NCBI GenBank assembly: GCA_024636675.1
Contig: JAGXGM010000008.1
Coordinates: 1 to 48,823, forward strand
DNA: 48,823 nucleotides
Direction of reading: 5' to 3'
From: Hydrogenophilales bacterium
GTDB taxonomy: Bacteria > Pseudomonadota > Gammaproteobacteria > Burkholderiales > Thiobacillaceae
Part shown: positions 12,722 to 47,664 of the stretch, piece after piece
How positions within the stretch are numbered: position 1 is the first letter of the stretch
Layout: the number at the start of each line of letters is the position of its first letter
Translations under genes and position numbers: made by a program
The notes under the pieces: generated by a model
Database searches by the model: none
Told to the model about the DNA's origin: nothing
The model's input: the letters and a program-made list of their open reading frames with translations, nothing else

Positions 12722-15541
12722 ATGAATGCACCCGATAATCTCCTGACGGACGATCACCTGCGCGCGCAGGTCAAATTGCTGGGCACTCTGCTGGGTCAGG
12801 TGCTGCTGCAGTTTGCCGGCGAAGACGTATTTGAGGCAGTGGAAACCCTGCGCCGCGGCTTTGCCGAACTGCACCAGCAGGAAGACCAGCAGCGCCGCAG
12901 CGAGTTGATGGCGATCATCGATGCGATGCCGGCTACCAAGGTCGAACTGGTGGTGCGTGCCTTCTCCAGCTATTTCATGCTGGTCAACGTGGCGGAAGAA
13001 AGCTTTGCCCACCGTAACCGCCGCCGCATGCTGTCGCACGGGATGCCGTTGTGGGAGGGTTCGTTCGACCGCACCATGGCCGACCTCAAGGCGCAGGGCA
13101 TTTCGGCCCATACCCTGCAGGACATGCTCAACCGGCTGCACTATGCACCGGTGTTCACCGCGCACCCCACCGAAGCGCGTCGACGTGCGGTGATGGAGGG
13201 GGTGCGCCGGGTATTTCTGATTTGCGACCAGATGTACAGCCCGACGCTGGGGGTGAACGATCAGCGCGAGCTGGAAGCGCAGCTGGCGGCCGAAATCCAG
13301 GTGATGTGGCGCACCGACGAGCTGCGCAGAGCCAAGCTGGAGGTGCGCGACGAAGTCCGCAACGGCCTGTATTACGTGCGGGAAAGCCTGTTTGAGGCGG
13401 TGCCGAAGGCATATGAATACTTCGAGAAGGCGTTGCGCAAGCATTACGGCGTGAACGCCGAGGGCGTCGCCCCGGTCAGCGTGCCGAGCTTTATCCGTTT
13501 CGGTTCGTGGATCGGCGGCGACCGCGACGGCAATCCCTTCGTGACGGCGGACGTCACCGAATGGACCGTGCATCGGCAGACGCAGCAGGCGCTCGATGAA
13601 TACCGTGAGCGGGTGCTGGAACTGCGCAAGACGCTTACCCACAGCAGCGACTGGTGCACGCCTTCCGCCCGCTTTCTGGCGCGCCTTCTGGAATACGAAA
13701 ACGAATTCGGCGAGCAGGTGTTCCGCGGCACCGCGGTGCAGATTTACAGCCGTGAACCCTACCGCCGTATGGCGGCGATGATGCTGGCGCGGCTGGACGC
13801 CAACCTGTCCTACGTCCACCAGTGCCTGGCAGACGTGCCGAGTCTTACCGCACATCTGGCGTACGAAAACGCTGCCGCTTTCCTCGACGACCTCTACCTG
13901 CTGCGTGATTCGCTGATCAGCCATGGCGACCGCATTGTCGCCATGCAGGATCTGCGGGCGTTGATCCGTCTGGTCGAAAGCTTCGGCTTTCATTTGCTGC
14001 AACTCGATATCCGCCAGGAATCGACGGTGCATACGCGCACGGTCGCCGCAATTTTGCAGCAACTCGACCCCGATTTCGATTACACCGGTGCCGCCGAAGC
14101 CGAGCGGCTGGAGCGGCTGGCCGTCTGGGTCGCCCGTATCGACCCGATCGAGGTGGACGATGCGGCACTGGACGACGAAGCGCGAGAAACACTCGCGGTG
14201 TTCCGCCGCATGGTCAGGCTGAAGGCCGAAGTGGGCGACGACGTCTTCGGTACTTACGTGATTTCGATGACCCACAACGCGTCGCACGTGATGGAAGTGA
14301 TGCTGCTGGCACGACTGGTCGGCTTGTGCGGCCACAACGGCTATGCGTGGTTCTGCCGCATTCTGGTGGCGCCGCTGTTCGAGACGGTGGACGACCTGCA
14401 GCGCAGCCAGGCGATACTCGACCAGCTGTTTTCCAACAAGGTCTATCGTGCGCTGGTGGCGTCCGATGGCAATCGCCAGGAAGTCATGCTCGGTTATTCC
14501 GACTCGTGCAAGGACGGCGGCATCCTGGCGTCGAACTGGAACCTCTATCAGGCGCAGCTTTCCATCATCGCGCTGACCAAGCAGTACGGCGTCGAGTGCC
14601 GCCTGTTTCACGGCCGTGGCGGCACCGTCGGGCGCGGCGGCGGCCCCACCCACGATGCGATCCTGTCGCAGCCGCCCGGTACCGTGAACGGTGAAATAAA
14701 GTTCACCGAACAGGGCGAGATGCTTTACTACAAGTACAGCAATCCGGAAACCGCCAACTACGAAATCGGCATGGGCGTCACCGGTCTGCTCAAGGCCAGT
14801 GCCACCGCGCTGGCGCATTGCGAGGTGCATTATCCGCAGGACTTCCTCGACTGGATGCGCGACATCTCAGCGGCAGGTGAGACTGCCTACCGTGCGTTGA
14901 TCGACACGCCGGGCTTCATCGATTATTTCTACGAAAGCACCCCGGTCACCGAAATCGGCTTGCTCAATATCGGTAGCCGGCCGTCGCACCGCAAGAAGGC
15001 CGACCGTTCACTCGGATCGATCCGCGCGATTCCGTGGGTATTCGGCTGGGCGCAGTCGCGCCACACGCTGCCTGCGTGGTATGGCATCGGCAGCGCATTG
15101 CAGAGCTTCATCGATCGCCAGCCGGACGGCCTCGCGCACCTGCGGGTGATGTATCGCGAGTGGCCGTTTTTCCGCAGCCTGTTGTCCAACGTGCAAATGG
15201 CGCTGACCAAGGCCGACATGGAAATCGCCGAGGAGTACGCGCGCCTGTGCGACCATCCCAACATCATGGTGGTCTACCGCACGATTGCGGACGAATTCGC
15301 GCTCACCGTGGCCGGCGTCAAGCAGGTCGTGCAGATCGAGACCTTGCTGGAAGACAACCCGTCGCTGGCGCTGTCGATTTTGCGTCGCCGCCCCTACATC
15401 GATCCGATCAACCACATCCAGGTGCTGATGCTAAAGCGCTACCGCACCGATAGCGTGTGGGAATCCGAGCAGGACAGCTGGCTGACCCCGCTCAAGCGAT
15501 CGATCAATGCCATCGCCGCCGGAATGCGCAACACCGGTTGA
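12722..15541 (+). CDS. ppc: Phosphoenolpyruvate carboxylase
   Basis: The 939-residue enzyme adds bicarbonate to PEP to form oxaloacetate, refilling the TCA cycle or supplying carbon-fixing cells. Landmarks are VFTAHPTEARRR (the first signature with the catalytic His), the SWIGGDRDGNPFVT loop, QLDIRQES, GYSDSCKDGG, the FHGRGGTVGRGGGP loop, FTEQGEM and the C-terminal MRNTG that closes PEPC proteins (QNTG-like). The length is in the usual 880-950 range. It starts 73 nt after purL and is followed after 14 nt by a small membrane-protein gene, so co-transcription is likely. Confidence 0.97.
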   Translation: MNAPDNLLTDDHLRAQVKLLGTLLGQVLLQFAGEDVFEAVETLRRGFAELHQQEDQQRRSELMAIIDAMPATKVELVVRAFSSYFMLVNVAEESFAHRNRRRMLSHGMPLWEGSFDRTMADLKAQGISAHTLQDMLNRLHYAPVFTAHPTEARRRAVMEGVRRVFLICDQMYSPTLGVNDQRELEAQLAAEIQVMWRTDELRRAKLEVRDEVRNGLYYVRESLFEAVPKAYEYFEKALRKHYGVNAEGVAPVSVPSFIRFGSWIGGDRDGNPFVTADVTEWTVHRQTQQALDEYRERVLELRKTLTHSSDWCTPSARFLARLLEYENEFGEQVFRGTAVQIYSREPYRRMAAMMLARLDANLSYVHQCLADVPSLTAHLAYENAAAFLDDLYLLRDSLISHGDRIVAMQDLRALIRLVESFGFHLLQLDIRQESTVHTRTVAAILQQLDPDFDYTGAAEAERLERLAVWVARIDPIEVDDAALDDEARETLAVFRRMVRLKAEVGDDVFGTYVISMTHNASHVMEVMLLARLVGLCGHNGYAWFCRILVAPLFETVDDLQRSQAILDQLFSNKVYRALVASDGNRQEVMLGYSDSCKDGGILASNWNLYQAQLSIIALTKQYGVECRLFHGRGGTVGRGGGPTHDAILSQPPGTVNGEIKFTEQGEMLYYKYSNPETANYEIGMGVTGLLKASATALAHCEVHYPQDFLDWMRDISAAGETAYRALIDTPGFIDYFYESTPVTEIGLLNIGSRPSHRKKADRSLGSIRAIPWVFGWAQSRHTLPAWYGIGSALQSFIDRQPDGLAHLRVMYREWPFFRSLLSNVQMALTKADMEIAEEYARLCDHPNIMVVYRTIADEFALTVAGVKQVVQIETLLEDNPSLALSILRRRPYIDPINHIQVLMLKRYRTDSVWESEQDSWLTPLKRSINAIAAGMRNTG

Positions 15542-33353: not shown

Positions 33354-34667
33354 TCAGGCAGCGGGAGAGGAGGGAAGGGTGTGGCGGGTGGCGGCTTCGA
33401 CCGAACCCGCCTCGGGGTCGTCGAACACGGCCTGGTCGAGCGCGTTTTCGCTCTTGGCGACGATGCAGCTCACCGCGCAGTCGCCGGTGACGTTGACCGT
33501 GGTGCGCATCATGTCGAGCAGGCGGTCGACGCCGATGATGAGCGCGATGCCCTCGACCGGCAGGCCGACCTGGCCCAGCACCATGGTCAGCGTGACGAGG
33601 CCGACCGCGGGGATCGCAGCGGTGCCGACCGAGGCCAGCGTGGCGGTCAGCACCACCAGCAGGTAGTCGGTGAGCGAGAGGTCGATGCCGTAGACGTTGG
33701 CGATGAACACCGTGGCCACGCCCTGCATCATGGCGGTTCCGTCCATGTTGATGGTGGCGCCCAGCGGCACGCTGAAGGAGGCGACGCTGTTCTTTACGCC
33801 CATCTTGTATTCCACTGTATGCAGGGTGACCGGGATGGTGGCGCCGGAACTGGCGGTGGAAAACGCGAACGCCGCCGGATCGCGCATCTTCTTCAGGAAG
33901 GTGAGCGGGTTGAGCGAGACCAGCAGGCGCAGCAGCAGCGGATAGGTGCCGAACAGCTGGATCGCCAGCGCGGCGGTCAGGGTGAGGAAATAGGCGGCCA
34001 GCGGCAGAAGCAGGTCCAGCCCCTGGGTGGCGAAAGTGCGGGAAATCAGCGCGAACACGCCGTAGGGCGCCAGCCGCATGATCCACTCGACCATGTGCAT
34101 GATGACCACGTTGAGGTCGGTGAACAGATTCAGCACATGCGTGCCGCGCGCCCCCGACATCGTGATCGCGATGCCCAGCAGCAGCGCGAACACGATGACC
34201 TGCAGCATGTTGCCTTCGGCCATCGCCGCCACCGGGTTGGTCGGCACCAGTTCGATCAGCACCTGGGTCAGCGGCGGGGCTTCCTTGCCGGCAAAGCTGG
34301 CGGTCGTCTCGCCGGCGTCGAATCCCTCCCCGGGGCCGACCACGCCGGCCAACGTCAGCGCGATCGTCACCGCGATCGCGGTCGTCATCAGGTACAGGGC
34401 CAGTGCCTTGGCGCCGATGCGGCTCAGCGCCTTCAGGTCCGATAGGGCGGTGACGCCCACTACCAGCGACACCAGCACCAGCGGCACCACCATCATCTTC
34501 AGCGCGGCCACGAACACCGAGCCGACCACGTGCAGCAACCCGTCCACTACAAAATTCTGTATCCAGGGCGCCGCGCCCAGCTGGTTGACGGCAACGCCGA
34601 GCACGATGCCCGCGAGCATCGCAATGACGATCTGGCGGGTGAGGCGGTGAGATTGGGGTGCGGCCAT
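33354..34667 (-). CDS. gltP: Dicarboxylate/amino acid:cation symporter (DAACS, GltP/DctA type)
   Basis: The 437-residue multi-pass transporter takes up glutamate/aspartate or C4-dicarboxylates with H+ or Na+. Typical parts are FVAALKMMVVPLVLVSLVVG, the re-entrant loop region ASSGATIPVTLHTVEY, the GATINMDGTAMMQGVATVF motif that forms the cation/substrate site, and GTAAIPAVGLVTLTMVL in hairpin 2. The first re-entrant tip reads SSGATIP rather than the more usual SSSATLP. It is the first gene of the gltP-pyrD-TIGR03790 unit. Substrate choice cannot be decided. Confidence 0.93.
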   Translation of the reverse strand: MAAPQSHRLTRQIVIAMLAGIVLGVAVNQLGAAPWIQNFVVDGLLHVVGSVFVAALKMMVVPLVLVSLVVGVTALSDLKALSRIGAKALALYLMTTAIAVTIALTLAGVVGPGEGFDAGETTASFAGKEAPPLTQVLIELVPTNPVAAMAEGNMLQVIVFALLLGIAITMSGARGTHVLNLFTDLNVVIMHMVEWIMRLAPYGVFALISRTFATQGLDLLLPLAAYFLTLTAALAIQLFGTYPLLLRLLVSLNPLTFLKKMRDPAAFAFSTASSGATIPVTLHTVEYKMGVKNSVASFSVPLGATINMDGTAMMQGVATVFIANVYGIDLSLTDYLLVVLTATLASVGTAAIPAVGLVTLTMVLGQVGLPVEGIALIIGVDRLLDMMRTTVNVTGDCAVSCIVAKSENALDQAVFDDPEAGSVEAATRHTLPSSPAA

Positions 34668-34832
34668 GTGGTTACCATGCAGGCGTCGACTGACGCGAGT
34701 TTAACAGGGCGATGCCGCCGGGCTGTTGCATGACGGACAGGCGATGTTATCCTGAACCTTCGCGTGCTTGCGCGTGTCTATACGCTTCAATCAATGTCCA
34801 TTCCGTTATTCTTCTCACTAAGCGACAACCCC

Positions 34833-35996
34833 ATGACGACCCCGTATTTTCTGCAGCGACTCGTATTGCTTTTCAGCGTGCTGATGGCGCCCGCCGCCTG
34901 GAGCGCCGACATCGTTCCTCCCCCGCCGCAACTGGAGGCCAAATCCTGGGTACTGATGGATGCCGCCAGCGGCAACATTCTGGTCGACCACCAAGGCAAT
35001 ACGCGCCTGCCGCCCGCCAGCCTCACCAAGCTGATGACCGCCCATGTCGCCGCGCTGGAACTCCAGCGTGGCCGGATCAAGGAGGACGATCTCGTCACCA
35101 TCAGCGAAAAAGCCTGGCGCATGGGCGGCTCGAAAATGTTCGTCAAGGTCGGCAACCAGGTCGCGGTAAGCGACCTGCTGCGCGGCATCATCGTGCAGTC
35201 GGGCAACGACGCCAGCATCGCGCTGGCCGAACACCTCGCCGGCGGCGAGGATACCTTCGCCGCATTGATGAATCAGGAAGCGAAGCGGCTGGGCCTCGCC
35301 GACACGCATTTCCTCAACGCCACCGGCTGGCCGGCCGAAGGCCATTATTCGAGCGCGCTCGACATGGCCAAGCTCGCGCGCGCCATCATCATCGAGGACC
35401 CCGAGCACTATGCGCTGTATGCCGAAAAGGAATTCGTCTGGAACGACATCAAGCAGCCCAACCGTAACCTGCTGTTGTGGCGTGACCCGACCGTCGACGG
35501 CCTGAAAACAGGCCACACCGAGGAAGCCGGCTACTGCCTGGTGGCGTCGAGCAAGCGCGACGGCCAGCGCCTGATCGCTTCAGTGTTCGGCACCGACAGC
35601 GAAGCCGCGCGGGCGACCGAAACCGCCAAGCTGCTGGCCTACGGCTTCAACTTCTTCGACAGCAAAGTCTTCTTCAAGCAGGGCGAGACGGTGCAAACCG
35701 TGGATGTGTGGAAAGGCGCCGCGCGTACCGTCAAGGCCGGCGTTGCCGCAGACTTCGCCGCCGCGCTGCCCAAGCGCACCAGCGGCGAGTACCAGACCCG
35801 TGTCGTGCTGGCCGAAGGCGACGTGGTTGCCCCCGTCCCCGCCGGTACGCCACTTGGGAAGGTCGAACTGGTGAGCCCTGACGGCAAGGTCGTCACCCAG
35901 GCGCCGCTGGTTGCGCTCGAGACGGTCGAAGAGGGCGGCTTTTTCCGCCGCGTGTGGGACAGCATCCGCCTGTTTTTCAAAGGCCTGTTAGGCTGA
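34833..35996 (+). CDS. dacC: D-alanyl-D-alanine carboxypeptidase (PBP5/6 type)
   Basis: The 387-residue protein trims pentapeptide side chains of peptidoglycan in the periplasm. A Sec signal (FLQRLVLLFSVLMAPAAWSA) is followed by the three penicillin-binding motifs: SLTK (in PPASLTKLMTAH), SGN (in VQSGNDASIALAE) and KTG (in DGLKTGHTEEAGYC). A C-terminal beta domain (QTVDVWKGAARTVKAG) follows. It ends with an amphipathic helix RRVWDSIRLFFKGLLG that attaches to the membrane surface. ATG 34833 is chosen because it gives a clean signal peptide. dacA would be an equally fair symbol. Confidence 0.94.
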   Translation: MTTPYFLQRLVLLFSVLMAPAAWSADIVPPPPQLEAKSWVLMDAASGNILVDHQGNTRLPPASLTKLMTAHVAALELQRGRIKEDDLVTISEKAWRMGGSKMFVKVGNQVAVSDLLRGIIVQSGNDASIALAEHLAGGEDTFAALMNQEAKRLGLADTHFLNATGWPAEGHYSSALDMAKLARAIIIEDPEHYALYAEKEFVWNDIKQPNRNLLLWRDPTVDGLKTGHTEEAGYCLVASSKRDGQRLIASVFGTDSEAARATETAKLLAYGFNFFDSKVFFKQGETVQTVDVWKGAARTVKAGVAADFAAALPKRTSGEYQTRVVLAEGDVVAPVPAGTPLGKVELVSPDGKVVTQAPLVALETVEEGGFFRRVWDSIRLFFKGLLG

Positions 35997-36011
35997 CCCT
36001 CAAGCGCGAAC

Positions 36012-36050
36012 AAAAAAGGCGACCCTCGGAAGAGTGGTCGCCTTTTTATT
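36012..36050 (+). terminator. Intrinsic terminator after dacC
   Basis: The stem GGCGACC/GGTCGCC is extended by flanking A/T pairs around an 11-nt loop and ends in TTTTTATT, 16 nt after the dacC stop. The A-run on the other side lets it work in both directions, so it may also stop transcripts of the signalling island. Confidence 0.9.
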
Positions 36051-36191
36051 GTCGGTGCCAGGTCCCGGGTCCGGAATCGAGCCGGAAAAGTCAGTGGTGA
36101 GGCAGGTCGAAAGCGTCCGTTTGTCGGCCTAAGCGGCCGGTGGCGTTCCTGGCACATAACCCCCTTGCCACCCATCCAGGCGGTAGAAATC

Positions 36192-36482
36192 TTAAAAGAG
36201 ACACATGGCCTGGCAGGGCGCATCGTGCAAGGATTTCCCGGCGTGCGCTCCCATGACCGGCCCATGCGTGAAAACACCATCAGGGCTGCCCTGGATTTCA
36301 TCGCCACGGCGGCCTTCACCACATCCACCAGGTTGCCATAGCGAAACTGGTGGGCCATGCTCGATCACCTCCCATCCATTTTTCGCCTCGGCGACCAGCT
36401 TGAGTTCCGGCATCAATGCCTGCACCAGGCGCAGCCCCTGGCGGACGATGGCAGGGTCATCGCCGATGAGAATGCGAAGCAT
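36192..36482 (-). pseudogene. Truncated NarL/FixJ-type response regulator
   Basis: The first 43 residues (MLRILIGDDPAIVRQGLRL, LKLVAEAKNGWEVIE) are a normal start of a NarL/FixJ receiver, except for GDDP where ADDH is usual. After residue 43 the frame turns into Gly/Pro-rich sequence (GPPVSLWQPGGCGEGRRGDEIQ) with no phosphoacceptor Asp strand, no catalytic Lys and no LuxR-type DNA-binding domain. It ends at 96 residues. Its ATG overlaps the kinase stop by 1 nt (TGATG), as in an intact kinase-regulator pair. It is best read as a remnant left by a deletion with a breakpoint near 36353. The neighbouring 150 nt holds no recognisable rest. Confidence 0.75.
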
Positions 36483-38389
36483 CAGGCCACCTCCCGGACG
36501 GATGGAATTCGAATGCGCACGGTGGTTCCGGCACCCGGCCTGGAATCAATGCGGGATTCACCGCCGAACTGGAGCGCACGCTCGCGCATACCCATCAAGC
36601 CGAACGTCTTGCGGCTTTTCACTTCCGCATGGTCAAAGCCGACGCCATCGTCGCGGATATCCATTTCAAGGAAGCCGTTGATCCATTCGATGCGCACGTT
36701 CACCTCCGAGGCGTTTGCGTAACGCGTGATGTTGGTAAGGGATTCCTGCAGGATGCGGAATGCGGCGGTGCTGCACTCATCGTCCAGATCGAGATTTTCT
36801 TCTGGCGCATGCAGATGGCAACGGATCTGGGTGCGCTCCTCAAATCCGGAAAGCAGCCACTCCGCCGCCGGCACCAGCCCCATGTCCAGCGCCGCGGGAC
36901 GCAATGAAGTGGCCAGGTTACGGACCACCCCGATCGTGGTATCGATGGTTTTTTTCATGCCGGCAACCTGGCGCGCCAGATCGGGATTGTCCGCACCAAA
37001 GTGGATTTTGAGCATGGCCGCATCCATCCGCAGAGCGGTAAGGTGTTGTCCGAGTTCGTCATGAATTTCCCGGGCGATGCGGGTTCGCTCCCCTTCCCGG
37101 ACTTTTTCATGGTGCGCAGCAAGTTCACGCAGGCTTTGCCGGGACCGCAGCAGCTCATCCTCATGCCGCTTGAGTTCGGTGATGTCCTGAGCGGTGTGCA
37201 GCATGCGCGCGTTCCACAATTTGATCCAGCCGGGCAGATCAGCTGCAGGCATCGGTCGCCCAATAAAAAAACCTTGGGCCAGGTCGCATTTTGTGCGCCG
37301 CACAAAATCCCAGTCATCCCGATCTTCCACGCCTTCGGCGACGACTGTCATACCGAGCTGCTTGCCCAGGTTAAGGCTGGCGTCGAATATCGCGCGCGCG
37401 GTGTCATCCAGCCATGCGCCGCGCACAAAGCTTTGGTCGATCTTGAGTTCATCGAATGGGATATCGCGTAACTGGGTCAGCGAAGAATGGCCCGTGCCGA
37501 AGTCATCGATTGAAAGGCCAAAGCGCTTCAGGCGCAATCGGGTCAGGACCTCCAGCGGCGCGCGCTGGTCCAGCATCAGTCGGCTTTCCGTCACTTCCAG
37601 CACGATATCCTGCGGTGCCACCCCTGCAGCGCTGGCAGCTGCGGCGACGAAATCGGCAAAAGCCACCGACGAAAGATTGTCCATCGATACGTTAACCGCT
37701 ACCCGAAGTCGGAGCCCATCCTGCTGCCAGGCCTTGCTCTGAGCCATCGCACCCTTTAGCACCACGCGCGTCAGGTCATCAATCAATCCATGATCTTCAG
37801 CGATGCTGATGAACTGCCCGGGGAATACCAACCCGTCCACCGGATGATGCCAGCGCACCAGCGTCTCCACGGCGACGATCGCGCCGGTGGTGACGGAAAC
37901 TTTGGGCTGGTAATAGTTGACCAGTTCACCTGCATCGATCGCAATGCGCAGTTCGTCTGCGTTATAAGCGTGCTTTGTCGGTTGCGGGGCAACGTGCATG
38001 TGCACTGACTTTTCCATGAGCTCGGTGAGTCGAGCCAAGCGAACAGGCTTGTTCAGATGCCCCAGCACCGTGATCCGGTGCGCCTGGATCAGTTTCACTG
38101 CCATTTGCAGAACACGCTCGTCTTCGCCACTGACCAGAATGAGATTGCCGGCGTAGTTATGCTCGACCAATTTACGGACAAACTCGATCCCATCCATTTC
38201 TGGCATCTGCAAGTCCAGCAGGATCAGATTGGGTGGGTTGACTTGGGTGTTTAAGCACGCCAGCGCAGCAGTGCCGTTATCGCAAGTCGTCACTGAGGTG
38301 AAACCCAGGTCGGCCAGCATGTGGCCGAGCAGCTTGAGCATAAAAGGATCGTCGTCGAGCACCAGGATCCGAATGATTGATTTGTTCAT
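36482..38389 (-). CDS. REC-EAL response regulator fused to a HisKA_3/HATPase kinase core
   Basis: The protein is 635 residues from ATG 38389. A receiver (1-125; acidic DDD at 12-14, phosphoacceptor D59 in LLDLQMP, K114) is followed by an EAL domain (about 145-390; ETL at 175-177, EVTES, DDFGTG, DELKIDQSFV, AEGVED). After GRPMPAADLPGWIKLWNAR comes only the tail of a PAS domain (MLHTAQDITELKRHEDEL). A full DesK/NarX-type kinase follows, with H443 in AREIHDELGQ, FRILQESLTNITRYA, DDGVGFD and FGLMGMRERA. It sits 10 nt after the giant hybrid kinase and is coupled to the truncated regulator. The join near residue 395 (about 37204) looks like an in-frame deletion that merged two genes. Both c-di-GMP hydrolysis and histidine kinase activity seem possible. 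Confidence 0.9.
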   Translation of the reverse strand: MNKSIIRILVLDDDPFMLKLLGHMLADLGFTSVTTCDNGTAALACLNTQVNPPNLILLDLQMPEMDGIEFVRKLVEHNYAGNLILVSGEDERVLQMAVKLIQAHRITVLGHLNKPVRLARLTELMEKSVHMHVAPQPTKHAYNADELRIAIDAGELVNYYQPKVSVTTGAIVAVETLVRWHHPVDGLVFPGQFISIAEDHGLIDDLTRVVLKGAMAQSKAWQQDGLRLRVAVNVSMDNLSSVAFADFVAAAASAAGVAPQDIVLEVTESRLMLDQRAPLEVLTRLRLKRFGLSIDDFGTGHSSLTQLRDIPFDELKIDQSFVRGAWLDDTARAIFDASLNLGKQLGMTVVAEGVEDRDDWDFVRRTKCDLAQGFFIGRPMPAADLPGWIKLWNARMLHTAQDITELKRHEDELLRSRQSLRELAAHHEKVREGERTRIAREIHDELGQHLTALRMDAAMLKIHFGADNPDLARQVAGMKKTIDTTIGVVRNLATSLRPAALDMGLVPAAEWLLSGFEERTQIRCHLHAPEENLDLDDECSTAAFRILQESLTNITRYANASEVNVRIEWINGFLEMDIRDDGVGFDHAEVKSRKTFGLMGMRERALQFGGESRIDSRPGAGTTVRIRIPSVREVA

Positions 38390-38399
38390 ACAGATTGGC

Positions 38400-41300
38400 C
38401 TATTTATCGTTGCGGCGATCTGCACGCTGCGCCTGCAAAGAATCGAGAAAGGCGTTCACGGCGTCGAGTTCCTGCTCGAATAGGGGCAATAGCGCCGCCA
38501 GCGCCTCAGTGCGGCCCGCTTTTCCGGCAGCTTCGATTTCTGCACACAGCTCACCCAATGCCAGCGCGCCCACGGTGCGCGCCGATGACTTGAGCTTGTG
38601 CGCATGCTGGCTTGCCCGCGCCGGTTGACGATCGACACACGCTGTTTTCAACTCGTCCCCTATCTTCGTTGCACTGATCCGAAAGTCATTTAGAAATTCG
38701 AGGATCACTGCGGGGTCGCTACCGATGATGCTTTCGAGCACGCTCACGTCCACCGCGCGATCAGCAGCCACGTAGGGAGCAACTTCAGCATAGGAATCCA
38801 GACTGGATACAGCGGGCGGCAGCCATGTATCCAGGAATTTTTTAAGCGCGTCCAGTTGCAATGGCTTGCTCAGGCAATCGTCCATGCCGACTGCCTGGCA
38901 GCGACCCGCTTCGCCTTCGTGCGTATTGGCGGTCAGGGCCGCGATCGGGATGCGGTGCGAACCCTGCTCCTGGGCACGAATCGCGGCAGTCAATGCATAA
39001 CCATCCATCTCCGGCATCTGCAAATCAGTGAGCAGCAGCGCATAGTTTCCGCTCTGCCAGCGTTCCAGCGCCAGCCTGCCGTTGTCAGCGATATCGGCAG
39101 CAAAACCGAGCAGCGCAAGCTGCCACAGGATCACCTTCTGGTTGGTCTCATTGTCCTCGGCAACCAAAATCAGCCGGCCATTGCGCAGTGCCTCATCGTG
39201 TGATGGCTGTTTGACCCCGTTCTTGTGGGACCGTGGCGTTTGTGGGTCTTCAAGTACGTGTCCGGCGGCAATAGCGACTGCTTTGAAGAGTCGGTGACGC
39301 GTCAGCACGTTGCCGTCCACCACTACCAAACCGATGTGTTTCACACGTGGCTCCCTTCGCGATCCGCGCTCAATGGCAACGATGCGGATTTCCTGGTCGG
39401 TCAGATCACGGTCAAGGGCGCGCAGTTCATTCAGCGCCAGCGGAATATCGACCGCATCGATGATCCAGATCCAGCGTCCCGGCGACAAACCGGGCATCAG
39501 CTTGCGTGCCTGCACCAGATCCGCTGCCCGCTCGACACGCGCATCGGCGTGGGCCAGATACGCAGCAAAATTTTCGGACGGTCCATCCGGGCTGCCTACC
39601 ACGAGGCAGGAGAGTCCGGCTACTTGCGATGCGGGGTGTACCGCACCTGCCTGACTTTGCGGCAGTGTGAACTGCAGGCGTACGGTGAACGTGGAGCCTT
39701 TCCCGGGCGTGCTTTGCAGCCCGAGATGCCCCCCCATCATGTTGACCAGATGGCGCGAAATGACCAGTCCCAGCCCGGTGCCGCCAAAGCGCCGGGTGGT
39801 CGAGGAGTCGGCCTGGGTGAATGCAGTGAATAGCCGCGCCTGGGTCTCTTCATCCATCCCGATGCCATTATCGGCAACGTGCATTTCCACGACTGTCTGC
39901 TCCGGATGACGCTCGATTTGCACGGCACTTACCGCTATCCGGCCCGCTTGCTCGCGGCCGCTGGAAAACTTGATGGCGTTGCCAACCAGATTCATCAGGA
40001 CCTGGCTTAGACGTAACCCATCGCCCAGAACCGCTTCGGGTATCGCGGGATCGACGAACACCGTGAGTTCCACGTTTTTATTGACCGCCAGTTCGTCCAG
40101 CATGACACAGGTCTTTTCCACCACGTCGGCCAACGAGATCGGTGCCTGTTCGATTTCCATCCGCCCCGCTTCGATCTTCGAAAAATCGAGGATGTCGTCG
40201 ATGATCGACAGAAGCGACATCGCCGACTCGTGCATGAGATCGACCATCTCCACCTGTTGATCGTTAAGTCCGGTCTGCTGCAGCACCTCGGCCATGCCAA
40301 TCACGCCGTTCATTGGGGTGCGGATCTCGTGGCTCATGGCGGCAAGAAAGCTGGACTTGGCCTGGTTGGCATGATCGGCCATGAGCCGTGCCTGCTGCAG
40401 ATCGGTGGTGCGTGTCGCGACCTTGTCTTCCAGTTCTTCATTCAGACTTCGCAGCGCCGCCTCAGCCTTCAAATACCCCATGGCATACGAAATGTCGCCG
40501 ACCAGTTCCGTCAAAAGTTTCATCTCTTCTTCATGGAAGAAGTTGCCTTCGCTCGCATAAAGCGCGAGCGCGCCAATGGTTTCGTCCGCGACGATCAGAG
40601 GCAGAATGACCATTGAGTGAACGCCGGCTTCAACATATTTTTTGCCGAACAGAACCTGGGGATCGCTTTGCGAATCGTTGGAGACGATGATTTTTTTCTC
40701 ACTGATTGCCCGGGCCACCATGGTGCGTGAAGCAAGCTCATCAGACGACAAGATGCTTTTGATGGTATCCAAGAGCGCTTCGTCCTTGCCCGCCGAGGCC
40801 ACCGGGACAATCTTCATCGTCCACCGATCCACGACGCAGATCATGGCCATGCGGAACCCGCCTGTCTCGACCGCAATCTTGCAGGCCTCCCTGAACAGTT
40901 CCTCGCTGCCTTGCACGCGCACGATCAGCGTATTGATTCCGCTCAGCATGGCGTATACCCGGTTGAGGTAGGCGAGCCGCCTCTCCGAGGCTTTGCGCTC
41001 GCTGATGTCCTGGACCGTTCCGTATAGCCCGACAACGCTGCCGCTTGCGTCCTTCCGGGGCGCCCCTCTCCAAAGAACGTCAACGGGCTTGCCGTGGGGG
41101 CGGCGTGCCAGAAGTTCATCGCCCTGTGCTTCGCCCGATGCAATTGCCAAGGCAAGCTTGTCCTTCAGGCGGGCCTGGCTCGTCGCCTCGTAGCAGGCGA
41201 TGACTTCTTCGTGGTTGCGTGGTGGTCCCAGGTGCGGATCGCGCCCCAGAATCTCAAATACTTGCGGCGACCAGGTAATTTCCCCGGTGGCAAAGTCCAA

Positions 41301-43973
41301 CTCCCAGTCTCCGATATGCGCAATGCGCTGCGCTTCGTTCAGGCGCTGCACCGCCCGCTTGATCGCTTGTTCCGAACGCTTGCGATCCGACGATTCCAGC
41401 GCGAGGGACGCCTGGTTCGCAACGGCGACCGCAAATGACTCCTCGTCGGCGGTCCACTGGCGCATGGGCCCAGCGTGTTCGTGACACAGGACGCCCGCCC
41501 CGGTGCCGCCCAGGTGGATGGGCGCATCCAGCAGGGACGTGACACCGAACGGCTGAAAGTGGCTCTCCGAGAACGCGCCAGTGCGTGGGTCACGCTGCGC
41601 GTCCTCCGCGACAATCAACTCCTGTGTCGCCAGCGCCTGGAAGTAGGCAGGAAAATCTTGGGCAGAAAACTCCATGCCGGCGGTGTGCAAGCCCGTCGCC
41701 ACCTCGTAGAGGTCCATGCATTGCAGGGCAGTGCCATCCTGGTTGTAACGCCAGATGCTGACCCGCGCGACCCCCAGGGTTTTGGCGCCCATCTCTGTGA
41801 TTCGCCGAATCGTGCCCAAGAGGTCTTCATCTGTGGCTCTCCCTCTGGCAAGTTCGATCAGGGCGTTGCGCTGGCGGAGGTGACGCTTTTCTTCCTCGCG
41901 CAGTCTCGTCTCCGCCTCCTTGCTCTCGCTGACATCTTGGAAATAGACCGCCAGACCCTGCTCGGAGGGATAGGCGCGAACGCCGAACCAGATGTCGAGT
42001 GGCGGGTAGAACGCTTCAAAATCCACGGTATGGTTGTCCGCGATCGCCCGCCGGTATTCGCGCTCGAAGGTGGATCCGATGGCCTCGGGGAACTCCGTCC
42101 AGATGTCTTGGCCGGTCAGCTCGGTGCGAGTTCGCCTGAGCAGTTGCTCGGCCTTGCGGTTGAGGAAGGTGAACCGCCATTCCGTGTCCACGGTGAAAAA
42201 CGCATCCGTGATGCTCTCGAGGGTTGTTGTGAGCCGCTCAGCCAGTCCGTAGATCTGATCCGCCGCATGCTTGCGCTCGGTGATGTCTTGATTGAGACCC
42301 AGAATGCCAATGACCTGGTTATCTTTGTCATGTAGTGGCACCTTGGAGGTGCGCAGCCAGATCGTGTTGCCGTTCGGCAATGTCCGTGGCCCTTCGAAAT
42401 CCAGCTGGGAGGCATCCGATTCCAACAATGCCTTATCGTTGGCGCGGTACACCTCGGCCTGATCCTTCCAACCCATTTCAAAATCGGTCTTGCCGATCAA
42501 TTCATCGGAGCTGGAGTACCCGGCATCATTCGCGAACTGAGTGTTGCAGCCCAGAAAGCGAGAATCGCGGTCCTTCCAGAAAATACGGGCTGGCACATGT
42601 TCGAGAACGAGTTGGAGGAAATTCTTCGTCTCGCTGAGTCTATCCACCGCCCGCTTGCGCTCGGTGATGTCGCGGAACGACCAGATACGACCGTAGGAAT
42701 GGCCCTCGCTATCCAGCACCGGTGCCGAAGAGTGGTCGAGGATGGTACCGTTCTTCATTACGACTTCGGCCTGCGAGGTTTCCTCCGGATGAGCGTCGAG
42801 GTAGTGGACGTTGCCTTTGTCGTCAGCGTGTTTGACATCGAGGATCTGGTTCATCACGTACTGCAACTGCCGGCTGTCGTCCGTGTCTTCCGCGATTTCT
42901 TCCGGAATCTTCCATAGGTCAATCATCCGCTGGTTATTCAGGATGATCCTGCCTGTCGTATCGACGACGTGGATGCCGTCCGCCGACGTTTTCACCAAAG
43001 TCTCGAAAAATGCCGTTCTCCAGCGCAGATCGATTTCCGCCTGTTTACTCGCAGTGATGTCGCGCATGACGGTGGATATGTAGTCAAGCTTACCGTCAGG
43101 CAATCTATGGGCGACTATGACCTGGGAGACCAAAATTTCCATGCCATCACGGGCCCGCAAGACGACCTCGCCGCTCCATACGCCATCGCGGATCGCGGTG
43201 GGGATCCCTACGGTCAAAGCGGGATGGCTGGAGGGGTCGGGGAGCAAGTCGGCAATCTGCACCTGTGTAATGTCTTCGTGAAGACCCACACCGAGCGCCT
43301 TGCGGGCGGCGCGGTTGAGGTAGAGGAGACGCCCTGCGGGATCGCTGAAACCGACAAGGTCGGAGGTGGACTCGAGGATCATTGCCAGGCGATTGTGCTT
43401 TGCTTCTGTTTGCACGCGTTCTGTGATGTTCAGGTGCATGACCACGATACTGCTCGGCGCGTCGTCAGTCAGGGGGGTGACCGACATCAGGAACCACCGC
43501 TGTTCTGTTGGCGAATGACAGGGATATTCCATTGAGAAGTGCTTCACCTCCCTATTCAATACCGAGCGAATGCCCCTGGCGGCCTGCTGAGCCTCGGACG
43601 CGCCCTCTCCCGCTGCGTTGTCGCATACCTCGAGATAATTGACGCCGATCCCTTCGCCCGGGCCTTGGATCGCATTTGCGCGGCCAAATCGCCGCCACGC
43701 CTCGGTCACCGAGATGATGAGACCTTGAGTATCGAGCACAGCGAGCGTCACGGGTAGCGCGTTTACGATAGCGGCCTGCATGGCAGCCTCGTTGTCACGC
43801 ATGTATTCCTGGGCGCGCCGCAACAACACCGTCCGGCCGTCACGGTCCGACACAGTGTCCACTTCGCCGGCAGTCAGTTCCTTCAAGCGTTGCTCGGTCC
43901 GGTGCAGTGTCTCGATCAACGCGGTAACTTCTTCGTTCGCGTCTACCGTAGAGGGTGTTTTTTCAGAGTTCAT
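38400..43973 (-). CDS. Giant soluble hybrid histidine kinase (6 PAS, 2 GAF, HisKA, HATPase, 2 REC-like, HPt)
   Basis: The 1857-residue protein has no membrane segment. Six PAS units begin near residues 65, 195, 320, 452, 580 and 880; four are closed by RDIT-, QDIT- or QDIS-type ends. GAF-like domains lie at about 703-860 and 1003-1165. A coiled coil (1170-1200) leads to HisKA with H1215 in [11 protein letters not shown], then HATPase ([25 protein letters not shown]). A first receiver-like segment (about 1452-1575) lacks the Asp strand. A complete receiver follows (D1650 in [14 protein letters not shown]1703), and an HPt domain with H1792 in HAHKLKSSA ends the chain. The phosphorelay is thus self-contained up to the final partner. 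The likely partner is the REC-EAL protein 10 nt downstream. The signals are unknown; a haem or flavin in a PAS is possible. Confidence 0.93.
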
Positions 43974-44239
43974 GCGACGTAACTTTCCAGGCCCAGGCCA
44001 GCAATACGGTCTTCGTCAGGCTGAGGGTGCCGACGATTCTTCGAAGGGGGACGGCACGAGCTCGCCGTGGTACAGGCCAGCAACGCTTTCTCGACCGGCT
44101 TGGCCAAGAGTTCCGTCTGTAGCGACTTCACTCGCACCTTGAGCTCTGCCTCTTCAGCATCGAGCCTGACGCGTATGGAAAGTCGGACGGATTTAATATG
44201 GGTTCCGCGGGAAGGCGCACGGAAACCGGCTTGGTCCAA
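43970..44239 (-). CDS. Possible small open frame upstream of the hybrid kinase
   Basis: An 89-residue frame with a TTG start that ends in an ATGA overlap with the kinase start. The middle ([20 protein letters not shown]) is a charged, helix-prone stretch; the C-terminal part is Ser/Arg/Pro-rich and looks less like protein. A one-base shift after KALLA would give a more protein-like end. It has no ATG and no recognised family. It may be chance or the tail of a decayed gene; the overlap is the only argument for it. Confidence 0.2.
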
Positions 44240-44593
44240 TACTGGCAGTATTTACCTGGTTGCCGTGACGGTCTGTTCGCTAATGCACACAAGCCGCTGT
44301 CGCGCAACTGCCGTGGGTGCTGCTGGACTCTTCGAATTGGAAGACACTTTCAGACGAGGGAATCTCTGATTGGTTCAATGAACCGTCATTACGAGCGAAG
44401 CGAAGCAGTTGCCCGGCAGCAGAGTCTATGGTTTGGAGATTGCTTCATTGCTATCGTCGTTTTTGGCGAGCAGGCGCCAACGGCCGCGTCTATTGAGATT
44501 CTCGAGGCGAATGGCAGGAATCGTTGTGTCGTGTTGAAAAACTGCTGTAGGGGCTTGGGCGCGCAACCTTTCGATACCGCAACGCATGACGGA
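44240..44593. other. Gene-poor stretch upstream of the hybrid kinase
   Basis: No supported gene here. Part of it is the repeat-like element at 44384-44460. The remainder has no promoter pair I can place with confidence, although the kinase operon promoter must lie in or near it. Confidence 0.4.
44384..44460. repeat. Degenerate dispersed palindromic repeat (CGTCATTACGAGCGAAGCGAAGC type)
   Basis: The left arm begins CGTCATTACGAGCGAAGCGA, a pattern I recall from intergenic repeats in many bacterial genomes. A partial right arm follows (GGAGATTGCTTC, then a damaged end near CGTCG). In intact copies the right arm usually mirrors the left as CGCTCCTCGCAATGACG; here it has decayed. It is a non-coding repeat relic beside the kinase operon. 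Confidence 0.55.
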
Positions 44594-44627
44594 AACGACA
44601 AGGGCCGCAAATGCGGCCCTTGTCGTT
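44594..44627 (-). terminator. Strong hairpin terminator of the pdh operon
   Basis: A perfect 16-bp inverted repeat (AACGACAAGGGCCGCA/TGCGGCCCTTGTCGTT) with a 2-nt centre lies 17 nt downstream of the E2-E3 stop. On the minus strand only a short T stretch (GTTTCC) follows, so termination may be partial. Confidence 0.75.
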
Positions 44628-44643
44628 GGTGCTTTCCGGACGA

Positions 44644-47600
44644 TTACTTCTTCGCCGTGCGTCGCAGCCGGTTCAACAACCGCCGCGCCAGTTCGCCGAA
44701 CAGTTCGGTCTGCGTCGGGTGCGGGAAGATGGCCTTCGCCACCTGGGTCAGCGTCATCTCGCCCGCCACCATCATCACGCCGATGCCGATCAGGGTGTCG
44801 GTGTGGTCGGCGAGGTAATGCACGCCGATGATGCGGCCCGTGGCCTTGTCGGCGACGAGCTTGATCATGCCTTCGGTCTCGCCGGTGATCATGGCCTTGG
44901 CGTCGATGCTCATCGGCATCTTGGCTTCCACCGCATCGATGCCCTTGGCCTTGGCCTGCGCGACGGACAGACCGACGAAGCCGGCCTGCGGGCGCGAGAA
45001 GGTGACGCCGCAATCCTTGTCCTGGTCGTATTCGGATGCGTGACCGAGCAGGTTGCTGGCGGCGACGCGGCCCTGTGTGGCGGCGGTGTGGGCGAGCATG
45101 TAGCCGCCTATGACGTCGCCCACCGCGTAGATGTTCGACGCGCTGGTCTGGCAGCGCGCGTCGACCTTGATCGCGGCGCCGTCGAGCTCGACGCCGACCT
45201 TGTCGAGATTGAGCCGGCTGGTGTCGGGGCGCTTGCCGGTGGCCATCAGGATGACGTCGCAGTCGAACACAGACTCGACGTCTTCCTTGTTGGCGCCGCC
45301 TTTATTTGAGTAGCGCAGCTTCATCTTGCCGGGCTTGCCGCTGGCTTCCTTGATGTCGGCGCCGGTGACGACGGTGATTTCCTTTTCCAGCGAGGCGACC
45401 AGGATCCTGGCGATTTCTTCTTCGGTTTCGGCGAGGATGCGGTCGTGGCGTTCCAGCATCAGCACCTCGGTGCCGAAGTCGCGGAAGATCTGCGCCATTT
45501 CCACGCCGATGACGCCGCCGCCGACGATGCCGAGCTTCTTCGGCGGCTGGGCGAGGTTCCAGATGGTATCGGAGGTGACCACGCCGCCGGTCGTCAGGTT
45601 CTCGCGCGCGCCGGGAATCGGCGGCACGAAGGCGGGGGCGCCGGTGGCGATGACGGCTGCGCCGAAGCTGACGGTGTAGGGCTCGCCCTCGACCGGGGTG
45701 ATCTTCAGCGTATGGGCGTCGACGAATTCGCCGTAGCCTTCGCGCACGTCGATCTTCATGCCCTTGTCGGCCTTGAGCGCCATTTCGCCGCGGCTCGACT
45801 GCACCCAGCGGCGATGCTTCTCGACCTGTTCCCAGTTGAGCTTCGGCGTGTTGGTGCCGTCGACGCCCATGTCGGCGTCGTGCGCGCGGTTGCGGATGAC
45901 GTCCGCCGCGGCGCGCCAGGCCTTGGAGGGAATGCAGCCGCGCCACAGGCATTCGCCGCCGGGGAAGGGCTCGTTGTTGACCATCATCACACGGACGCCG
46001 TGATCGGCGAGGTCGCGCGCGCAGTCCTCGCCGCCGGGGCCGCCGCCGACGACGACGACCGGGAAGTCCCAGTTACCCTCGGGGATGGGTGACACCGGTG
46101 CGCTGGTGGTCGCAGCTGCGCCGGCGACGGTTTCAGCCGCCGCCGCTCCGCCCGCCATCCAGGCTTCGGGCGCTTCGATGGTCTGCTTCAGCGTGGCCAG
46201 ATACAGCGCGACGTCAGCGCCGTTCAGCACGCGGTGGTCGCCGGTGATGGTGAAGGGCGTGCCTTGCGGTCCGTTGGCGGCAATCGCCAGGATCGCGGCG
46301 ATGCCGGGGGTGGGGATCGCCGTGAAGTGCGACACGCCCAGCATGCCCATGTTGGAAATGGTGAAGGTGGGATTGGAATACTCGGCCGGTGCCAGCTTTC
46401 GCACGCGTGCGCGCTCGACGAGGCTCGTCCAGTCGCTTTGCAGCGCGTCCAGCGGTTTTTTCTCGATGCCGTGCAGAATCGGCACGACGAGGCCGCCGTC
46501 GTTCGACATCACTGCGACGCCGAAGTCGTGGTTCGCGCGTTCGACCAGCTTGTCGACCGGCTGGTAGGCCCAGTTCATGCGCGGGAATTTCGCCATCGCG
46601 ACCGAACAGGCCTTGGCGATCGCCACCGTCACCGAGACCTTCTTCGCCTTGGCGGCGGCGGTCAGCGCGGCGGTGTTGATGTTCATCGTGACGTTGAAGG
46701 TCGGCAGCGTCAGCGAGGCGGTCATCGCGTGGGAGACGGCCTTTTCCATCGAGGTCATCTTGCGACCCTGGCCCGGCACGTCGACCTGCGGCAACGAATG
46801 CGCGACTTCCTGCATCGATGGACGCGCACGTGCCACGTCGGCGGCGACGATGACGCCCGAGGGGCCGGTTCCGGCCAGACCGGTGAGGTTCACGCCCAGC
46901 TGCGCCGCGACCTTGCGCGCATAAGGGCTGGCCTGGCGGCCCTGCGGACGGCCGACGGGCTGCTGGCTGCCTTCGGCGGAAATCTGCATCGGCGCGGCCT
47001 TGGGCATGGGGATGTGCGCCGGCTTGTCGGCCGCATGTGGCGCGACCTTGTGCGTGTCCTTGACCTTGTGCTCGGCAGAAATCGTCACGCCGGTGTCATT
47101 CGCCTTGGCGGCGTCGTCGACGATGAAGCCCATCGGGTGGCCGACTTCGACCACGCTGCCGACATCGGCGATGGGGCCGGAGAGGAAGCCGTCCTGGAAA
47201 ACCTCGACGTCCATGATGGCCTTGTCGGTTTCCACGGTGGCGACGATGTCGCCGCGCTTGATGGCGTCACCCGGCTGTTTTTCCCAGGTGACGACCACGC
47301 CTTCGGTCATGGTGTCCGACAGTTGCGGCATCACGATCGGCGTGCCGGCGTGGTGCGGGATCATCTCGGTCTGCGCCTGTTCCGCCACCACTTCGTCGGC
47401 GGCAATCGCCATGTCGCCCGCGGTGTCAGTGATGTAGCCGAGTGCTGCGCCGACGGCAATGGTCGCGCCGACGTCGGCCAGCGGGCCGGCCAGATAGCCG
47501 GCCTTGAACACTTCGACGTCCATGATGGCCTTGTCGGTCTCGACCGTGGCGACGATGTCGCCGCGCTCGACGCGGTCGCCGGGTTGCTTCTCCCAGGTGA

Positions 47601-47664
47601 CGACCACGCCCTCGGTCATGGTGTCCGAGAGCTGCGGCATCGTGATGGCGTAATGTTGGGACAT
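44644..47664 (-). CDS. Fused dihydrolipoyl acyltransferase (E2) - dihydrolipoyl dehydrogenase (E3)
   Basis: The 1006-residue chain joins two PDH-complex enzymes. Two lipoyl domains (1-80 with K45, 108-184 with K148, each in ETDKAIMDVEVF) are followed by an E3/E1-binding domain (about 243-280, SPYARKVAAQLGVNLTGLAG) and an E2 catalytic domain (about 295-500) ending in GDHRVLNGAD. That motif keeps H477 but has N481 where Asp is usual. An Ala/Pro-rich linker (about 500-530) leads to E3, with the FAD site VVVVGGGPGGED, redox cysteines C572 and C577 in GECLWRGCIPSK, a NAD site (GIVGGGVIGVEMA) and the catalytic His-Glu in PHPTQTE. E3 looks closer to the mercuric-reductase-like branch than to classic Lpd. 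It follows E1-beta in the operon. The frame is open throughout, so this is a real fusion. Confidence 0.93.
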   Translation of the reverse strand: MSQHYAITMPQLSDTMTEGVVVTWEKQPGDRVERGDIVATVETDKAIMDVEVFKAGYLAGPLADVGATIAVGAALGYITDTAGDMAIAADEVVAEQAQTEMIPHHAGTPIVMPQLSDTMTEGVVVTWEKQPGDAIKRGDIVATVETDKAIMDVEVFQDGFLSGPIADVGSVVEVGHPMGFIVDDAAKANDTGVTISAEHKVKDTHKVAPHAADKPAHIPMPKAAPMQISAEGSQQPVGRPQGRQASPYARKVAAQLGVNLTGLAGTGPSGVIVAADVARARPSMQEVAHSLPQVDVPGQGRKMTSMEKAVSHAMTASLTLPTFNVTMNINTAALTAAAKAKKVSVTVAIAKACSVAMAKFPRMNWAYQPVDKLVERANHDFGVAVMSNDGGLVVPILHGIEKKPLDALQSDWTSLVERARVRKLAPAEYSNPTFTISNMGMLGVSHFTAIPTPGIAAILAIAANGPQGTPFTITGDHRVLNGADVALYLATLKQTIEAPEAWMAGGAAAAETVAGAAATTSAPVSPIPEGNWDFPVVVVGGGPGGEDCARDLADHGVRVMMVNNEPFPGGECLWRGCIPSKAWRAAADVIRNRAHDADMGVDGTNTPKLNWEQVEKHRRWVQSSRGEMALKADKGMKIDVREGYGEFVDAHTLKITPVEGEPYTVSFGAAVIATGAPAFVPPIPGARENLTTGGVVTSDTIWNLAQPPKKLGIVGGGVIGVEMAQIFRDFGTEVLMLERHDRILAETEEEIARILVASLEKEITVVTGADIKEASGKPGKMKLRYSNKGGANKEDVESVFDCDVILMATGKRPDTSRLNLDKVGVELDGAAIKVDARCQTSASNIYAVGDVIGGYMLAHTAATQGRVAASNLLGHASEYDQDKDCGVTFSRPQAGFVGLSVAQAKAKGIDAVEAKMPMSIDAKAMITGETEGMIKLVADKATGRIIGVHYLADHTDTLIGIGVMMVAGEMTLTQVAKAIFPHPTQTELFGELARRLLNRLRRTAKK
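47197..47334 (-). repeat. Duplicated lipoyl-domain segment, copy 2
   Basis: This segment encodes residues 111-156 of the E2-E3 protein. MPQLSDTMTEGVVVTWEKQ and GDIVATVETDKAIMDVEVF are identical to copy 1 at 47506-47643, a 309-nt offset, and the DNA is also highly similar. It points to a domain duplication kept homogeneous by gene conversion or of recent origin. Confidence 0.85.
47506..47643 (-). repeat. Duplicated lipoyl-domain segment, copy 1
   Basis: This segment encodes residues 8-53 of the E2-E3 protein and is the N-terminal partner of the copy at 47197-47334. The two differ mainly in RVER versus AIKR just before the shared GDIVATVETDKA stretch. Confidence 0.85.

Follow-up and report, generated by a model that had tools for sequence, protein, structure and literature searches.

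Does a gene that carries a REC-EAL protein and the core of a NarX/DesK-type histidine kinase in one open frame encode a new kind of signalling protein, or is it the product of an accident, and how could it have come about? This question is raised by a locus within the 48,823 nucleotides of contig JAGXGM010000008.1 (Hydrogenophilales bacterium, assembly GCA_024636675.1) that were analysed here and are referred to as the window. With a probability of about 65%, we regard it as a chimera that was joined in frame by accident where a genomic island ends in a scar, i.e. as a protein with a working phosphodiesterase half and a passenger kinase half. The argument starts from three genes:

36485..38389, minus strand: fused REC-EAL-HisKA_3-HATPase open reading frame of 635 amino acids (ORF calling and Pfam)
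38400..43973, minus strand: hybrid kinase of 1857 amino acids with PAS/GAF-HisKA-HATPase-REC-Hpt architecture (Pfam), upstream of the fused gene and in the same order in relatives
36192..36482, minus strand: receiver stub of 96 codons, 42 of them homologous to a NarL-type regulator and followed by an unrelated frame

The fused gene is a single open frame that begins with an ATG at 38389, and all four Pfam domains of its product, i.e. Response_reg (residues 8-124, 1.1e-20), EAL (145-379, 6.8e-67), HisKA_3 (434-501, 3.6e-16) and HATPase_c (542-630, 7.3e-13), score above their own cut-offs. ORF calling and Pfam thus confirm what an earlier note on this DNA had read from the letters, namely an in-frame fusion of REC-EAL to HisKA_3/HATPase with the catalytic motifs of both halves. 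The receiver domain retains its conserved Asp and Lys and is followed by a complete EAL domain (Pfam and alignment to RocR), in which the active-site motifs (ExL, here ETL, N, E, DD, K, E and Q) are all kept when aligned to RocR (PDB 3sy8). Likeness to PvrR and RocR spans residues 6-384, with a match to the RocR structure of 1.1e-53, but the score of 297.6 bits against the NCBIfam PvrR model stays below the equivalog cut-off of 580 bits, and by these matches the REC-EAL half is of the PvrR type and not PvrR itself. PvrR and RocR have hybrid-kinase partners encoded nearby, and the hybrid kinase upstream of the fused gene is likely the partner of this REC-EAL half.

The second half comprises a kinase core, HisKA_3 plus HATPase_c, with its His box in place (REIHDELGQ) and its frame still open; DesK is the top-scoring kinase in a search of solved structures. 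This half has neither a sensor of its own nor a complete cognate regulator: the PAS region was lost at the junction (break A below) except for its last strand (QDITELK), and the adjoining receiver stub, for which a Pfam search found no match, has neither the phospho-acceptor Asp nor a DNA-binding domain. As noted earlier, the TGA stop of the fused gene and the ATG of the stub overlap by 1 nucleotide, the shared A, and homology in the stub is lost early, after 42 codons instead of the approximately 43 residues first given.

The fusion is seen in a single genome and a single assembly (90 contigs, 81% complete). No second protein spanning the EAL and HisKA_3 halves was found in 56 genomes of the genus (where the window's own is the only one; up to 22 candidates scored per genome), in 117 of the family (up to 10 candidates) or in 369 of the class (up to 3 candidates), sets that overlap. 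An established REC-EAL-HisKA_3 family, for which the same full-length protein would have to occur in many genomes, is therefore rejected within this sampling. The combination was also absent among ORFs of at least 250 codons in the loci compared, which include the best 80 of 428 GTDB relatives, a selection from which near relatives of the window may be missing. In the part of the literature covered, no EAL-kinase fusion was found, which is not proof of absence.

Could the two halves nevertheless work together? If so, the REC-EAL half would feed into the kinase half along an unbroken helix, with phosphorylation or c-di-GMP turnover gating autophosphorylation and phosphotransfer, the recipient being the NarL-type regulator that this genome encodes on contig C45. 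An AlphaFold2 model (28 alignment rows, mean pLDDT 81, pTM 0.50) indeed extends the last EAL helix across the junction as a single predicted helix (residues 382-459), but pLDDT drops to about 61-68 past residue 400, and to less than 50 at residues 133-138 and 487-496. The C45 regulator is uninterrupted and 75% identical to that of the relative G027; it adjoins its own kinase, which is uninterrupted as well and has a shorter N-terminus. The earlier note, which had suggested a search for such a partner, was correct in that the regulator no longer exists locally, but not for the genome as a whole. As the fused protein and the C45 kinase agree at 60 of 74 positions around the His box and the C45 pair is uninterrupted, cross-talk is conceivable, and the motifs of both catalytic halves are present.

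Codon changes point in another direction. On the window branch, the REC-EAL region has accumulated 12 silent and 8 replacement changes (counted only at codons where all six relatives agree; REC 2:3, EAL 10:5), which differs from neutral with p 0.0005, whereas the kinase core, with 3 silent and 9 replacement changes (counted only at codons where G027 and G008 agree, and with G009 given no weight), does not differ from neutral, the neutral silent:replacement ratio being computed without transition bias in both cases. On the G027 branch, the ratio in the same core is 8:2 (against 3:9 for the window, Fisher p 0.03); the direct contrast between kinase and REC-EAL, with small numbers of 12 and 20 codon changes, respectively, gives only p 0.076. 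Pairwise dN/dS for the kinase half is 0.26 against G027 and 0.34 against G008, which is below 1 but well in excess of the 0.08 between these two; for REC-EAL, too, the window has slightly elevated values (0.22-0.37, versus 0.17-0.31 among relatives). Moreover, the kinase half is altered at residues that are alike in all six aligned kinases (R to H, G to A, S to P). At the level of sequence, the REC-EAL half looks maintained by selection on the window branch and the kinase half most likely changes neutrally, as a decaying passenger; some of the window-branch changes may predate the fusion. That the kinase half could also phosphorylate a regulator, as had been proposed, is thus possible, but this half bears no sign of selection on the window branch. 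With this neutral ratio, a helix of low confidence built on a shallow alignment and no second case in the genomes searched, we consider joint function of the two halves unlikely. That a new signalling protein has just emerged here, with a c-di-GMP phosphodiesterase under phosphorelay control as the input domain of its histidine kinase and with c-di-GMP turnover thereby connected to a NarL-type regulator elsewhere in the genome, would be a long shot.

Where the two halves come from can be seen in relatives. Close copies of REC-EAL alone occur in 6 of the 56 genus genomes (G008, G022, G026, G015, G031 and G021), as proteins in a 408-codon frame that are 87-90% identical to the window's, and more distant REC-EAL proteins are present in other genomes of the genus. 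Near the operon, G015 and G026 have a second, diverged REC-EAL gene (54% identical; L040:1067-2278 and L042:6919-7635), with one TGA counted inside each. Separate kinase cores with 72-93% identity are found in G027, G008, G042, G032, G031 and G009 and on contig C45. In G027, G031 and G032, kinase and NarL-type regulator lie side by side, and chemotaxis genes are found further on: G027 and G031 have a methyl-accepting protein domain and receivers, whilst G031 and G032 have CheA-type kinases. A seeming kinase-regulator fusion in G008 (frame of about 885-905 codons) crosses a run of N (L033:3702-3714) and is put down to an assembly gap. These matches support the three source genes named in the earlier note, an EAL regulator, a PAS kinase and a NarL-type regulator. 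EAL regulator and PAS kinase are indeed separate genes in relatives, but they are never neighbours among the matches listed for the 56 genus genomes. G008 and G031 have close copies of both parents, on different contigs in each, and in G031 both genes are well inside long contigs (94 and 161 kb).

At the left end of the fused gene, DNA comparison with relatives resolves a series of joins:

37190..37197, minus strand: break A, from REC-EAL to kinase
36357..37196, minus strand: kinase/regulator scrap (about 840 bp) between breaks A and B, seen as DNA matches
36302..36356, minus strand: scrap of an EAL-domain gene, 55 bp, 84% identical to G009:C128 and G010:C24
36150..36305, plus strand: scrap of a tyrosine-integrase gene, C-terminal part, about 155 bp (protein match E 3.9e-14, 67% over 51 amino acids)

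At break A, kinase homology ends at 37189-37196, depending on the relative, and REC-EAL homology begins at 37197 (37201 in G021). Break B lies at about 36356, where kinase/regulator homology stops at 36346-36358, again depending on the relative, and a different match starts at 36356. The two breaks had been placed near 37204 and 36353, i.e. within 15 bp, although 7-14 bp and about 3 bp off. On one side of break A the DNA is 89-93% identical to one group of loci, and on the other 74-97% to a second group; the two sides are, as judged from these matches, of different parentage far beyond chance. With the end of REC-EAL in G008 and the kinase of G027 taken as stand-ins for the true parents, the longest exact word common to both near break A has 7 bases, no different from 200 shuffled controls (mean 6.8, maximum 11).

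The kinase/regulator scrap is 94.1% identical to G027 over 833 bp and 96.7% to G008 over 658 bp, and 73.5% to contig C45 of its own genome. As the receiver stub is much more diverged from G027 than the kinase core (dS 0.58 versus 0.10) and matches G008 exactly over 42 bp, the donor of the scrap was nearer to G008; G008 has a gap at that place, which takes the stub out of the branch counts. Leftward from break B follow the EAL scrap, the integrase scrap on the opposite strand, a stretch of about 63 bp that recurs in five relatives and the carboxypeptidase gene. The G009 frame that matches the 55-bp scrap holds PAS, GGDEF and EAL domains, and the match falls inside EAL. The integrase scrap, for which a Pfam search found no match, is 80% identical to G039 over 104 bp of DNA; its parent gene has the domains Arm-DNA-bind_3, Phage_int_M and Phage_integrase. 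The stretch of about 63 bp within 36076-36147 recurs at 82-89% identity in G028, G054, G005, G029 and G053 and is possibly a dispersed repeat or the end of an element. A search for a plasmid source for 35997-36482 found no match. In relatives, the stop of REC-EAL falls within the start of a further gene, one that ends in a receiver; of the 42 matches of this gene in the window's genome, all start at least at residue 243 of the 384 searched, save one (120), so that no second copy of its N-terminal part turned up.

All of this lies at the left edge of an island, which is delimited as follows:

36065..44580, no strand: lower-GC island of 8.5 kb, defined by the limits of flank homology and a drop in GC
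34764..35996, plus strand: D-Ala-D-Ala carboxypeptidase (PBP5-like), left core gene (Pfam Peptidase_S11, 4.9e-81)
44644..47664, minus strand: 2-oxoacid dehydrogenase E2 fused to E3, right core gene (Pfam; conserved flank)

DNA homology between window and relatives ends at 35992-36064 and resumes at 44580-44644, and GC is 0.56-0.61 inside but 0.668 and 0.65 outside. In the six relatives followed as far as the right edge (G002, G004, G009, G010, G016 and G025), a single locus holds both edges, with 0.6-2.7 kb between them; in the compared stretch of G003, no match to the right edge was found. Against its six carriers, the operon shows 89.3-93.4% identity (measured over only 1260 bp in G022), whereas a conserved gene of the window is 81-85% identical to the same six; closest at this gene among 13 hand-picked genomes are G016 and G003 (91%), neither of which shows a close REC-EAL. 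Import of the island would be the simplest reading. An attachment site in a tRNA or RNA-family gene beside the island was considered and rejected, since the window's only tRNA lies at 14317 and an RNA-family search of 34500-38500 found no match; nor do the two edges have a repeat in common beyond short matches (8-13 bp, E no better than 0.96). At the right edge, 44062-44580 comprises about 500 bp of lower GC without a clear gene and unmatched in the loci compared. The right core gene joins E2 (lipoyl acyltransferase) and E3 (dihydrolipoamide dehydrogenase) in one ORF of 1006 amino acids; G002 has a 998-amino-acid ORF at the matching place (87% DNA identity). A search of the window's genome for AsmA was empty, which shows little because the assembly is 81% complete.

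How could such an edge have formed? An 8.5-kb island with a hybrid-kinase/REC-EAL operon would have come in from a different species of the same genus and have settled between the carboxypeptidase gene and the 2-oxoacid dehydrogenase gene. On the left, the REC-EAL gene would have lost its end, together with the partner gene downstream of it, to illegitimate joining that needed hardly any shared sequence and that put scraps of kinase/regulator, EAL and integrase genes in their place, with the kinase scrap falling in frame by chance and giving rise to one protein of 635 amino acids. The REC-EAL half is most likely still a PvrR/RocR-like c-di-GMP phosphodiesterase under phosphorelay control by the upstream hybrid kinase, whereas the kinase half, deprived of sensor and partner, would most likely be a decaying passenger, as its neutral-looking changes suggest.

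The earlier note had instead proposed two deletions, by which REC-EAL, kinase and regulator genes once side by side on the island would have been reduced, with the first two being fused and the third being cut. The pieces of all three do have the same orientation, the kinase-regulator order is inherited and at break A the outcome would look the same. However, the parents are never neighbours among the matches listed for the genus genomes and are well separated in G031, and since break B leads into the EAL and integrase scraps, i.e. two foreign pieces beyond the one between the breaks, further joins would be needed. With the parents apart in relatives and the extra scraps forming the left edge of the island, patchwork joining at this edge fits better than two local deletions, which we consider quite improbable. 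An assembly chimera, conceivable with a fusion seen once in an assembly of 90 contigs and 81% completeness, is likewise improbable, because the core flanks belong together in six relatives, so that the contig joins the right places, because the 7-base word common to both sides near break A is too short for k-mer misjoins, and because the assembler would have had to err several times independently within about 1.1 kb.

Overall, the accidental chimera would show clearly how signalling genes can be pieced together where imported DNA ends, since the breakpoints, the unoccupied site and relatives of both parents can all be identified. Should its kinase half be active, it would represent a rare coupling of EAL to a kinase; should it be inactive, it cautions against inferring function from domain order alone. 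Like the PvrR/RocR regulators, the fused protein has REC plus EAL and an adjoining hybrid-kinase gene, but it differs from them in its additional C-terminal kinase core and in scoring below the PvrR cut-off. With NarX/DesK-type kinases it shares HisKA_3, HATPase_c and the His box, but unlike these it has no sensor or PAS domain, its N-terminal partner is a phosphodiesterase and its partner regulator is truncated. Chimeric genes in general can arise at the junctions of genomic islands or of recombination, and foreign DNA of lower GC, an integrase remnant, gene scraps and little shared sequence are found here as there; in contrast to the usual chimeras of this kind, however, the join described here keeps one long frame through two catalytic units.
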